Assembly: GCF_002080435.1 (NCBI RefSeq)
Contig: NZ_CP020538.1
Location: forward strand, 682,001 to 746,000
Reading direction: 5' to 3'
Length of the DNA stretch: 64,000 nucleotides
Origin: Sphingobium herbicidovorans
GTDB lineage: Bacteria; Pseudomonadota; Alphaproteobacteria; Sphingomonadales; Sphingomonadaceae
Position 1 is the stretch's first letter. Every line of letters begins with the position of its first letter. Of the stretch, positions 12,860 through 16,053 are shown piece by piece. The position numbers were made by a program, and so were the translations under genes. Under the pieces are notes generated by a model. It worked only from the letters and a program-made list of their open reading frames with translations, had not been told where the DNA came from and ran no database searches.

Positions 12860-12933
12860 GCAGGGCAACGTAATTAATAAAGGTTAACAAAGCCCTGCGA
12901 CCCCTCGCTCAGGTTTTTAGGTTAAGAGCGTTT

Positions 12934-12955
12934 GTTGCATTAATGCAACGTTAAC
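12934..12955. promoter_or_regulatory. CtrA box (TTAA-N7-TTAACC) overlapping a 16-bp palindrome
   Basis: TTAA at 12940-12943, seven bases, then TTAACC at 12951 match the CtrA consensus TTAA-N7-TTAAC exactly. The box overlaps a perfect 16-bp palindrome, GTTGCATTAATGCAAC, at 12934-12949. It lies 60-80 bases before the RpfF-like gene in an AT-rich 156-bp gap that has further TTAA half-sites. CtrA is the cell-cycle response regulator of alphaproteobacteria; binding here is inferred from sequence. Confidence 0.55.
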
Positions 12956-13015: not shown

Positions 13016-14053
13016 ATGCCCGCTTTCGTCCAGCGCCGGTTGCATCCGCGAGCTAATCTTGTTTTGCTCGACACCGATCAAAATGCGGGGGCACAGATGA
13101 CTGATTCCGGACGGTTTAATCCGGCGCATGACGAAGTGGAGGACGTTTCGTCAGTGCATTTGCCTGATGACGACATCCATGGCTTCACCGTTAGGGAAAG
13201 CCCGCCGCAGGGGCGCGACAACAACCAGTCGATGCTGTTCGATCTTGGACAGATCGACGTCAGCTGGGATGAATCCATCGATACGCTGTGGGCGTTCATG
13301 ACCCCGGCGAATCGGCCCAACTATAATTTGCCCATGCTGCGAGACATCCGGCTATGGCAAACAGAGTCCAAGCGCCTGTTTGACGACGGCGCCTTGCCAC
13401 TCAAATATATGGTGCTGGGGTCACGCTTTCCGGGCGTTTTCAACCTGGGCGGCGATCTTGAACTTTTCGCGGCCTGCATCGAAAGAGGCGACCTGCCCGG
13501 CCTCGTCAAATATGGCCACGCCTGCATCGATGTCGTGCATCGCGCCTGGCGCAACGCCGACATGCCGCTCATTTCCATCGCGCTGGCGCAGGGCGATGCT
13601 CTGGGCGGCGGGTTTGAGGCGCTGCTCTGCTTCGACGTGGTGGTGGCGGAGCGGAGCGCTCGCTTTGGCTTGCCCGAAATGCTCTTCGGCCTGTTTCCGG
13701 GCATGGGCGCCTATTCGATCCTCGCCCGCAAGCTGGGACGTCGCATGGCGGAGCGCATGATCCTTTCCGGCAAGGTTTATACCGCCGAGGAAATGTACGA
13801 CATGGGCGTCGTCACCATTCTTGCCGAAGATGGCGAGGGTGAGCAGGCCGTTCGCGACTATATTCGCGGCAACCGCCCGCACCATGCGGGCCATGTCGGT
13901 GTGTTCGAAGCCGGCCGCCGGGTCGATCCGCTCGACTATGCCGAGTTGAAGGACATCGTGGAAAACTGGGCGGCGACCGCGCTCAAGCTGGATCCCAAGG
14001 ATCTGCGCCTGATGCGAAGGCTGGCATCCGCTCAAACCCGCCTGACCAAATAG
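13016..14053 (+). CDS. RpfF-like crotonase (putative DSF-family signal synthase)
   Basis: The 345-residue protein has a crotonase core from about residue 75 that closely resembles Xanthomonas RpfF. It shows FNLGGDLELF (oxyanion hole), SIALAQGDALGGGFEALLCF, ARFGLPEMLFGLFPGMGAYS and KVYTAEEMYDMGVV. The two glutamates needed by RpfF for acyl-ACP dehydration and thioester cleavage (E141 and E161 there) correspond to E201 in GGGFEA and E221 in GLPEMLF, with the same 20-residue spacing. RpfF enzymes make cis-2-unsaturated fatty acid (DSF) signals. The N-terminal 75 residues are acidic and not part of the fold. Starts at 13016 (AAGGG upstream) and 13097 (GGGGG upstream, 318 residues) are both possible. 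A CtrA box lies upstream, and a GGDEF-EAL gene converges on it 8 bases after its stop. An ordinary enoyl-CoA hydratase role is less likely but not excluded. Confidence 0.82.
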   Translation: MPAFVQRRLHPRANLVLLDTDQNAGAQMTDSGRFNPAHDEVEDVSSVHLPDDDIHGFTVRESPPQGRDNNQSMLFDLGQIDVSWDESIDTLWAFMTPANRPNYNLPMLRDIRLWQTESKRLFDDGALPLKYMVLGSRFPGVFNLGGDLELFAACIERGDLPGLVKYGHACIDVVHRAWRNADMPLISIALAQGDALGGGFEALLCFDVVVAERSARFGLPEMLFGLFPGMGAYSILARKLGRRMAERMILSGKVYTAEEMYDMGVVTILAEDGEGEQAVRDYIRGNRPHHAGHVGVFEAGRRVDPLDYAELKDIVENWAATALKLDPKDLRLMRRLASAQTRLTK

Positions 14054-14061
14054 GCGTCCGT

Positions 14062-16053
14062 TCAGGCGCGGCGTCGGTCCTTCATCAAGGTCACGACGTC
14101 GCTTCTTTCCCGCTTCATCTTGCCCATCATTTCAAGCAGGTCGTCGGCGGTCATGGGCTTGCTCAGCACGAAACCCTGGACATTGCTGAAGCCCATTTCG
14201 CGGGCGTAGCGCAGCTGTTCTTCAGTTTCGATGCCTTCCGCCACCGTTTCGACGTCCAGCGAGTGCGCCAGATAGGCGACCGACTGCGCAATCGCCCGGT
14301 CCCGCCCGCTTTCCCCCACCCCGCGCATGAAGCTCTGATCGACCTTGAGCGTGTCGAAAGCATAGTCGCGCAGATAGCCGAGCGAGGAATAGCCGGTCCC
14401 GAAATCATCCAGCGCCAGCCGCAGTCCGATCCGCTGCAATTCCGACAGGATCAGGCTGGTCCGGCCGCTATCTTCCAGGAAGATGGATTCGGTGACTTCC
14501 AGTTCCAGTCGGCGCGCCTTCAAGCCCGATCCCAGCAACGCCGCGATGACGGCGCGGGGCAACCCGTCGCTCTTGATAAGCGCGGGTGAGATGTTGACGG
14601 CGACCCGGACATGATCTTCCCAATGCATGGCGTCGCGGCAGGCTTGCTCCAGCGCCCATGCCGTAATCGACTCGATCAGCGAACTGCTTTCGGCGATCGG
14701 TATGAACTCAGCGGGCGAAATGCGTCCCATCACCGGATGGTCCCACCGCATCAACGCTTCGCAAATCGCGATCTTCCCCGTCACTGTGTCGAAGATGGGC
14801 TGATAATGCAGCAGCAATTCGCCGTTGGCCATGGCCGTGCGCAGGCCCATTTCCAGTTCATACGTCCGGTTCTGCCGCTCCTTCATCGACCAACTGAACC
14901 TGGCATGGCGGTTCCGGCCATCATGCTTGGCCTTGTAAAGCGCCATGTCGGCATGTTGCAGCAACTCTTCGCTGCCACGCCCGTCATCAGGCGCAACGGC
15001 AATGCCCATCGAAGCGGTGACAGTCAGGTGATAGCCGCTGACGTCGAAATCATGGACGAATTCGGCCATGATGTCGGCCGCAATCTGCTCGGCAACGGCG
15101 CTGTCGGCCCCTGGGCAGATCAGGATGAATTCATCGCCGCCAAAGCGCGCGACATAGCCGCGGTCATCCACGGCATGCGAAAGCCGCGCGGCGACCGAGC
15201 AGAGTAGCTGGTCGCCGATGATATGGCCCAGGGAGTCATTGATCTCCTTGAACCTGTCCAGGTCCATCCAGAAAACCGCCATTGCGTCCTGGTCGGAACG
15301 CCGCCTGTCGAACAGGTCGCGCAGGCGCATCTGCATCGCCATGCGATTCTCGACCCCCGTCAGGCTGTCGAATCGCGCCAGCCGTTCGAACTTGGTCGCC
15401 AGCTGGGACTTCTCATATTTGCCCTGCAACGCTTCAACGACGATTCGGTGGGTCGTCCGCGTAATCTCCGCCATGGCGAAGATCATCAGGAACAGCATGG
15501 TCGCCAGCACCCAATAGCCAAGCCCGCCTGCAATGCAGAGGCCGAGAGTGGTAGGCAGCAGGGCAAAGCAGGTCTGGCCGATGGCGATATGAACCCGGCC
15601 CGCATTACGCCCTGCAATGCCGCCGGAATAGGCCGCGACAAGACACACGCTCAATATGTGCAGCGACGCATCCTCGGTCAGCGTCAGCGTCGCGAAGGCA
15701 AGCAGGCCAAGCAGCGCCGCATATCCCCAGGCGCCCAGTTCATAGGCTAGTCCCCAGATCGGCCGGGTTGGACCATCCTGGTGCGCCAACTCTCGCTGGA
15801 AATAGACCGCCGACACCGAACGGCTGAGCGCGACCAGGAAGATCAACGCCGCAATCGCGCTGATTTCGACGCGCTGCGCGTGATGGGCGACCACGTAGCT
15901 GAGCGCTCCGCCAGCCACCGCGCCGATCATCAAAGAGGCGGGCGACGCGTAAAGCGATCTGACAAGACTATCCTGCACCTCAGCGCTCTGCTGAGTATCC
16001 GGCGCGAGGCGCGCGCGCAATTTTGCGCTCCAATGGCGGAAGAGGGATGACAC
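14062..16053 (-). CDS. Membrane-bound GGDEF-EAL protein (c-di-GMP turnover)
   Basis: The 663-residue protein has about five to six N-terminal membrane helices (residues 40-200), then a GGDEF domain (RFGGDEFILIC, residues 303-313) and an EAL domain. The EAL domain keeps the metal and catalytic residues: CEALMRWDHP (EAL at 432-434), NISP, LELEVTES, LALDDFGTGYSSL, LKVDQSF and VAEGIET. The cyclase site is also intact, but no RxxD inhibitory site is visible five residues upstream of GGDEF. Both synthesis and hydrolysis of c-di-GMP are therefore possible. The gene is tail-to-tail with the RpfF-like gene, recalling rpfF-rpfR pairs, although here the sensor is a membrane domain rather than the N-terminal and PAS domains of RpfR. 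Confidence 0.92.
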   Translation of the reverse strand: MSSLFRHWSAKLRARLAPDTQQSAEVQDSLVRSLYASPASLMIGAVAGGALSYVVAHHAQRVEISAIAALIFLVALSRSVSAVYFQRELAHQDGPTRPIWGLAYELGAWGYAALLGLLAFATLTLTEDASLHILSVCLVAAYSGGIAGRNAGRVHIAIGQTCFALLPTTLGLCIAGGLGYWVLATMLFLMIFAMAEITRTTHRIVVEALQGKYEKSQLATKFERLARFDSLTGVENRMAMQMRLRDLFDRRRSDQDAMAVFWMDLDRFKEINDSLGHIIGDQLLCSVAARLSHAVDDRGYVARFGGDEFILICPGADSAVAEQIAADIMAEFVHDFDVSGYHLTVTASMGIAVAPDDGRGSEELLQHADMALYKAKHDGRNRHARFSWSMKERQNRTYELEMGLRTAMANGELLLHYQPIFDTVTGKIAICEALMRWDHPVMGRISPAEFIPIAESSSLIESITAWALEQACRDAMHWEDHVRVAVNISPALIKSDGLPRAVIAALLGSGLKARRLELEVTESIFLEDSGRTSLILSELQRIGLRLALDDFGTGYSSLGYLRDYAFDTLKVDQSFMRGVGESGRDRAIAQSVAYLAHSLDVETVAEGIETEEQLRYAREMGFSNVQGFVLSKPMTADDLLEMMGKMKRERSDVVTLMKDRRRA

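Follow-up and report, generated by a model that had tools for sequence, protein, structure and literature searches.

The stretch of Sphingobium herbicidovorans DNA analysed here (64,000 nucleotides of contig NZ_CP020538.1, positions 682,001 to 746,000; hereafter the window) contains a crotonase-type gene, rpfF, that lies tail-to-tail with a gene for a membrane protein carrying GGDEF and EAL domains, which we refer to as GEmem. The crotonase is of the RpfF type and is not an ordinary enoyl-CoA hydratase. Our working hypothesis, to which we assign a probability of about 0.58, is that the two genes form a variant rpf module of the diffusible signal factor (DSF) family, in which GEmem stands in the receptor's place and passes the signal on via cyclic di-GMP (c-di-GMP) within one polypeptide. 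We suggest that GEmem occupies the place held elsewhere by RpfC/RpfG or by RpfR because of the types of partner found with rpfF, the kinases that face rpfF across the Alphaproteobacteria, and the joint gain and loss of rpfF and its partner on an RpoB tree.

Identity of the crotonase and of its membrane partner

The NCBIfam model NF006452 scores the crotonase at 372.8 bits (cut-off 177), while the best ordinary hydratase model among the 25 NCBIfam models listed reaches 78 bits. In a sequence comparison with the Protein Data Bank (PDB), four RpfF chains scored 155–173 bits and the next crotonase 61. A fold search with the AlphaFold model of RpfF (mean predicted local distance difference test score (pLDDT) 69; residues 1–73 and 221–229, E221 included, below 50) returned RpfF or DfsA as the first 12 matches, with TM-scores over the target of 0.87–0.90, and the remaining rows among the 50 matches listed had TM-scores of 0.77 or less. 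Of four crotonases from the window's own genome that were placed in a 75-row tree, three fell far outside all RpfF rows; the fourth (L004, 154 residues filling 45% of the columns) stood among them on a branch of 7.84 and is treated as a misplaced short row. A grouping with ordinary enoyl-CoA hydratases, which the original prediction had named as one result that would overturn it, was seen neither by profile nor by PDB score, fold, or tree.

Nine residues are named for the pocket of RpfF from Xanthomonas campestris pv. campestris (Xcc): G85, L136, G137, G138, E141, E161, M170, W258, and L276 (PMC9864630; this and the other PMC sources cited here are represented by partial texts). All nine named there are identical in the window protein, as placed by the PDB-chain alignment with a 16-residue offset inferred from E141 matching the Glu of GGGFE. 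Across 97 RpfF rows (56 from genomes of the window's family, 18 from loci of the genome_contigs set, 19 class-level and 4 from the PDB, with the partial L164 left out), E201, E221, G145, G197, G198, and W318 are kept in every row, L336 in 96, M230 in 94, and L196 in 92; residue numbers count from position 13016 throughout. E201 and E221, which the original prediction had equated with the Xanthomonas glutamates on account of their 20-residue spacing, are indeed matched in the alignment to the two equally spaced glutamates of Xcc RpfF, and its proposed oxyanion segment aligns likewise, FNLGGD with FNLGGD and with G145 as the invariant glycine. Because enoyl-CoA hydratases have a corresponding Glu pair (PMC9864630), this pair alone is no marker of RpfF, and it is the profile, fold, and tree evidence that marks the protein as such. 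'DSF synthase' is already the name given to proteins of this kind in JGI records and in some from NCBI, so that the identity of the enzyme is not new.

The GGDEF and EAL domains of GEmem are complete by Pfam, and residues G305–F309, E432, N487, E519, D549, D550, K570, E606, and Q626, which we take to be the catalytic positions of the two domains, are invariant in a 30-row alignment. An RxxD I-site was found in none of 28 aligned rows, two of which belong to a second GGDEF-EAL protein and none to type C as defined below. Intact cyclase and phosphodiesterase residues in the absence of an I-site had been predicted from the letters, and the wider alignment bears this out; judged by its motif residues, GEmem is a catalytically complete GGDEF-EAL enzyme. 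The AlphaFold2 model of GEmem (mean pLDDT 85.3, predicted template modelling score 0.56) has six long helices within residues 38–227, the sixth of which continues as far as the GGDEF domain, and a fold search with the whole model returns GGDEF-EAL proteins. With residues 1–215 as query, 132 proteins were found at E ≤ 1e-5 among 6875 candidates, limited to 0.55–1.75 times the length of the whole query, and all 120 of the 132 that are listed have both EAL and GGDEF. Pfam detected neither PAS nor REC in GEmem, with FI not profiled as such and RpfR not searched for elsewhere in the genome. Neither rpfF nor GEmem encodes an HD-GYP regulator, no search of the genome for HD-GYP having been made.

Two observations on GEmem relatives stand apart from these results. 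The database homologues P0148 and P0149 are named 'histidine kinase' though only GGDEF and EAL are listed for them, which is probably a naming error, and genus g71 has, in tandem behind the GEmem gene, another membrane GGDEF-EAL gene that differs from it (L092 2647–4992; L093 7713–11090).

Partners of rpfF in the genus, family, and class

In a scan of the genome_contigs set, rpfF and GEmem are convergent in all 18 Sphingobium-type loci, and tgt is also in place in 17 of them; in L025 the pair is present, and none of tgt, groEL, or the sensor-kinase gene was detected within 12.9 kb. Among 81 genomes of the genus, rpfF occurs in 69 and GEmem in 73 (both in 69, GEmem alone in 4, neither in 8, rpfF alone in none). 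GEmem lies convergent beside rpfF in each of the 69 rpfF-bearing genomes, and the gap between the two, taken from match coordinates, is at most 150 bases in 61 and 1254 at the largest. The synteny check called for by the original prediction thus gave a pair conserved in relatives throughout the rpfF genomes of the genus, and adjacent in 13 of 56 at the level of the family.

All 56 rpfF neighbourhoods found among 149 genomes of the family (E ≤ 1e-30) were read, and they are of three types. In type A (13 genomes), GEmem is adjacent to rpfF and convergent with it. In type B (6 genomes), a convergent RpfC-like kinase is followed by a REC-PAS-GGDEF-EAL protein. In type C (37 genomes), rpfF lies beside other genes, namely an ATPase gene 3' of rpfF in 37/37 and often asnB upstream and a pirin-like gene (names read from the proteins), and a full-length GEmem is encoded elsewhere in 36 of the 37, the sole exception, G111, being a genome in ~360 contigs. 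The type B assignment is based on Pfam for three of the six loci plus the kinase of G084 (L167), and on tblastn for G064 and G122; by Pfam the kinases have HisKA, HATPase, REC, and HPt domains and their partners REC, PAS, GGDEF, and EAL. The RxDSExxQ motif is nearly complete in one of the six type B kinases (L062) and was not found in the other five. In the six type B genomes there was no full-length GEmem among the listed matches, where up to 8 candidates were scored per genome, matches were listed to about E 8e-109, and 'absent' means no listed full-length match. It was proposed at the outset that the membrane protein sits in the receptor's place, and the type B genomes speak for this: in all six, which have rpfF but no listed GEmem, that place is taken by an RpfC-like kinase and a REC-PAS-GGDEF-EAL protein. 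At the type B loci (L062, L069, L071, L072, L110/L167, and L120), REC-PAS-GGDEF-EAL is found instead of the HD-GYP RpfG of Xanthomonas.

A search with the type B REC-PAS-GGDEF-EAL protein as query (E ≤ 1e-130, up to 7 candidates scored per genome) found 7 of the 149 genomes, the six of type B and G130, and a profile of the RpfC-type sensor built from 14 kinases (up to 20 candidates scored per genome) also found 7, the six of type B and G038. In the window's genome this profile had no match at E ≤ 1e-8 (best 20 of 33 candidates scored), so that the earlier statement that no RpfC is present stands at the scale of the genome. As to the two additional genomes, G130 (L166), a genus mate of G064, has the type B regulator without a detected rpfF and with no complete kinase seen adjoining, and G038 has an RpfC-type sensor domain (G038:C1:255720-256220) without a detected rpfF, possibly as a receiver of another species' signal.

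At the level of the class, the RpfF enzyme was found in 21 of 289 genomes, 19 of them outside the window's family and in 12 families; 20 class-level loci were read, two of them contributed by G342. A convergent hybrid kinase faces rpfF in 14 of the 20 loci (L147–L159, L161); among the others, L146 has a receiver fragment at a contig end, L160 and L164 are cut off, and L162, L163, and L165 have no kinase nearby. In 12 of the 14 kinases, R-x-D-S-E-x-x-Q stands exact ahead of the membrane region, and the two variants are an M at the end of the motif in L147 and a T in place of S in L159. Residues R15, D17, S18, E19, and Q22 of RpfC are reported to be essential for DSF sensing (PMC5391125). A second kinase in L159, on the opposite side of rpfF, is without the motif. 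The next gene on the same strand after the kinase encodes a REC-kinase in 12 of the 14 loci (REC-PAS-HisKA-HATPase in the three run through Pfam) and a REC-PAS-GGDEF-EAL protein in G259 (L161); no HD-GYP protein was seen among the partners read at these 14 loci. We infer the order of the changes in arrangement, the tree not being firmly rooted among RpfFs: rpfF facing a true RpfC would be ancestral in the class, with type B one step off and types A and C having GEmem instead. An apparent RpfF fusion in G265 (L149, 656-residue frame) was dropped, its first part having no Pfam match and residues like those of an open high-GC frame.

The joint history of rpfF and its partner was followed in the family. 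The 149 genomes comprise 49 with rpfF and GEmem, 7 with rpfF only, 9 with GEmem only, and 84 with neither, a distribution with a Fisher p of 1.9e-22 that is inflated by kinship. On an RpoB tree of 70 genomes, a non-random sample of 30 search-returned loci and 40 genomes chosen for types and contrasts, rpfF takes 21 changes, no fewer than in shuffles (as low in 177–188 of 500), GEmem takes 14, a number as low as which no shuffle gave, and adjacency (type A) takes 9. In 15 independent pairs of genomes that differ in rpfF, the module, meaning GEmem or the type B regulator, differs in the same direction in 8.2 on average and in the opposite direction in none (median p 0.008); for GEmem alone the figures are 7.4 same, 0 opposite, and 7.6 unchanged (median p 0.008, range 0.004–0.06). 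Taken from the other side, the 9 pairs with a difference in the module show rpfF differing in the same direction in 7.4 and never in the opposite one. Among rpfF genomes, only 2 independent pairs bear on whether GEmem and the kinase module exclude each other. In the RpfF tree, for which type A was thinned from 31 rows to 26 and type C from 37 to 16 and in which the bootstrap had not settled, types A and C share a group (88/100) in which C is nested in A, and type B is separate (99/98). Distances between RpfF proteins correlate with those between GEmem proteins beyond what RpoB distances account for (partial r 0.84, n=14, permutation p 0.0002; within type A alone, partial r 0.69, n=9, p 0.0006), a correlation that would also be expected from joint inheritance of linked genes alone.

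Proposed mechanism and competing explanations

By analogy, RpfF would make a cis-2-unsaturated fatty acid from 3-hydroxyacyl-acyl carrier protein (ACP), and this fatty acid would most likely act, in or at the inner membrane, on the six-helix domain of GEmem, from which the long sixth helix would relay the change to the GGDEF-EAL part. The EAL phosphodiesterase would be favoured and the level of c-di-GMP would most likely go down, which is the direction reported for RpfR and RpfG; GEmem would work like RpfR, but from the membrane. As an alternative input, GEmem could be set by contact with RpfF. What we infer here is that DSF is made, that GEmem senses it, and which way c-di-GMP changes. In its most specific form, which we put forward tentatively and would rather bet against, the proposal is that GEmem constitutes a third class of DSF receptor that binds cis-2-unsaturated fatty acids within the membrane through its six-helix domain and sets c-di-GMP itself, replacing the RpfC/RpfG phosphorelay; the swap would have taken place inside the Alphaproteobacteria, with the older (RpfC) and intermediate (type B) forms coexisting.

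Several observations weigh against the proposed module. The narrower NCBIfam equivalog model for RpfF, NF053515, gives the crotonase 179.6 bits against a cut-off of 550, and because of this we call the protein RpfF-type and not a proven equivalog. The membrane domain of GEmem does not resemble the RpfC sensor (hhalign probability 1.1%), and the RxDSExxQ motif was found in none of 31 GEmem rows; because of the dissimilarity between the two domains, the step in which GEmem itself would sense the fatty acid is the weakest. GEmem is also present without rpfF in 9 of 93 rpfF-less genomes of the family and in 4 of 12 in the genus, the two genes are non-adjacent in 37 of the 56 rpfF genomes of the family, and the module is unchanged in 6.8 of the 15 pairs that differ in rpfF. 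The idea that the GEmem membrane domain is a transplanted RpfC sensor was rejected on the hhalign result and the missing motif.

Among the competing explanations, we consider it unlikely that the two proteins are coupled by contact, such that RpfF binds GEmem and either GEmem restrains RpfF or RpfF sets GEmem, the fatty acid being sensed elsewhere or not at all. Contacts of RpfF with the REC domain of RpfC (PDB 3m6m) and with the FI domain of RpfR (PMC6361424, PDB 6dgn) are known, and rpfF and GEmem are inherited in linkage, but GEmem has neither REC nor PAS by Pfam; the unlinked genes in type C genomes neither favour nor exclude contact. We regard as quite unlikely that RpfF is mainly an acyl-ACP thioesterase or dehydratase that alters membrane fatty acids, with GEmem reading packing or fluidity and not a diffusible signal. 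RpfF enzymes can free fatty acids from acyl-ACP (PMC4504480), and the sensor of GEmem, an integral membrane domain, has no named ligand fold; however, the same enzyme family faces kinases with the RpfC motif for DSF sensing at 12 of the 14 class-level kinase loci, which argues for a signal.

It strikes us as improbable that rpfF and GEmem have unrelated functions and have stayed neighbours through descent. Local gene order is generally conserved, given that tgt is kept in 17 of the 18 loci, linked genes are co-inherited anyway, and nine genomes of the family have GEmem without rpfF. Yet the pair persists in L025 without its usual flanks, adjacency takes 9 changes on the RpoB tree, 36 of the 37 unlinked type C genomes still have both genes, rpfF and the module change jointly and never oppositely, and an alternative c-di-GMP module occupies the same place. 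Finally, that the crotonase is an ordinary enoyl-CoA hydratase is hardly credible: Pfam matches and record names are generic and some NCBIfam hydratase models match it too, but these reach at most 78 bits among the 25 listed against 373 for NF006452 and 180 for the RpfF model, RpfF chains outscore the next crotonase in the PDB, and the top 12 folds are RpfF or DfsA.

RpfF is tied to a different kind of partner in 69 of 81 genomes of the Sphingobium-like genus and in many other sphingomonads. If the variant rpf module that we favour is the true reading, the pair would contain a transmembrane switch that leads from fatty acid to c-di-GMP in one protein, DSF-type signalling and cross-talk would be predicted in a large group of environmental bacteria, and three partner types on one enzyme family would provide a setting for studying receptor replacement.

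Layout of the locus and comparison with known DSF systems

The tail-to-tail arrangement at a distance of 8 bases was part of the original prediction, and both open reading frames (ORFs) and the interval between them are present (Table 1). The crotonase frame had been taken to begin at 13016. The open frame exists, but this start is probably 27 codons too early: an ATG is kept at the position of 13097 (M28) in 16 of 17 Sphingobium-type loci compared (absent in L024; L025 outside the comparison) and at the position of 13016 in only about 2 of 17 (L010 and L017, by eye), and among the 120 homologues listed for RpfF many have 305–320 residues. We therefore place the start at 13097, and the protein is then probably of 318 residues, in which the Glu pair becomes E174 and E194. 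Judged by the closest matches that carry a name, Novosphingobium sp. Chol11 (89%) and Sphingobium vermicomposti (84%) followed by other Sphingobium, the window's genome is Sphingobium-like.

Table 1 Features of the rpfF-GEmem locus (positions in the window)
Feature	Position	Strand	Remarks and basis
Crotonase-type rpfF gene, open frame of 345 codons	13016..14053	+	Probable start ATG 13097, then 318 aa
Codon of E201 (counterpart of Xcc E141)	13616..13618	+	Alignment
Codon of E221 (counterpart of Xcc E161)	13676..13678	+	Alignment
8-base interval separating both stop codons	14054..14061	.	Sequence
GEmem, six-helix membrane GGDEF-EAL protein, 663 codons/aa, GTG start	14062..16053	-	ORF, Pfam, predicted structure
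GEmem unnamed membrane domain, residues 38-227, six long predicted helices	15373..15942	-	AlphaFold2; no Pfam match
GEmem GGDEF domain, residues 227-382, motif RFGGDEF, without RxxD I-site	14908..15375	-	Pfam, alignment
GEmem EAL domain, residues 404-633, motif EALMR	14155..14844	-	Pfam, alignment
Dyad TGTTGC-N6-GCAAC(A/G) upstream of rpfF, possible operator	12933..12950	.	Sequence comparison
Small divergent open frame, 62 codons	12680-12868	-	Product matched in other loci

The dyad upstream of rpfF reads TGTTGC-N6-GCAACG in the window and may be the operator of some regulator. At least 10 of 12 matches to TGTTGC-N6-GCAACA were found upstream of rpfF in 12 of the 18 Sphingobium-type loci, at a nearly identical position in 9; outside these loci, such a match precedes rpfF in 2 of the 12 other type A loci and 1 of the 6 type B loci, and in none of the 36 type C or 18 class-level loci. 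A role as a general rpf operator was rejected, since among the 72 loci of other types the threshold of 10 of 12 is reached in only 3. The product of the small divergent frame was matched in 17 of the 18 Sphingobium-type loci, the exception being L025.

Two core routes of DSF perception, RpfC/RpfG and RpfR, are described in the available part of a review (PMC4504480), and a census of c-di-GMP sensors, as far as its partial text goes, ties DSF only to RpfR, in beta- and gammaproteobacteria (PMC8846402). We found no description of the rpfF-GEmem pair in the open-licence PMC literature, judged from titles and the beginnings of abstracts of the papers listed. By the features tested, GEmem belongs to neither the RpfC nor the RpfR receptor family, and the arrangement looks like an undescribed third way of wiring DSF signalling.

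With the RpfC/RpfG system of Xanthomonas and its relatives, the pair in the window shares the same type of enzyme, matching pocket residues, the convergent placement of the receptor genes, and an expected c-di-GMP output; the rpfC operon in Xanthomonas and rpfR in Burkholderia are both convergent with rpfF, and perception activates a c-di-GMP phosphodiesterase (PMC4504480). Convergence is not universal, as rpfF, rpfC, and rpfG all point in one direction in leptospirilli (PMC8357829). Unlike that system, no RpfC-type sensor was found in the window's genome, the GEmem domain does not resemble the RpfC sensor, and a single membrane GGDEF-EAL protein stands where RpfC/RpfG has a hybrid kinase and an HD-GYP regulator. 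The RpfF-RpfR system of Burkholderia and Cronobacter is similar in that rpfF is convergent with a GGDEF-EAL gene (PMC4504480, PMC6361424) and in that the signal enzyme and the c-di-GMP enzyme are encoded by two genes. RpfR, described as a soluble protein, carries FI and PAS domains at its N-terminus and binds RpfF via the former (PMC6361424), whereas in GEmem six helices predicted to lie in the membrane make up the N-terminal part and Pfam detects no PAS. Closest to home, the type B module of sphingomonads (e.g. L069, L071, and L062) has the same enzyme family, the same convergent place, and a GGDEF-EAL output; it differs in consisting of two proteins, apparently linked by a phosphorelay, where GEmem is one membrane protein, and its RpfF enzymes group apart from those that accompany GEmem.

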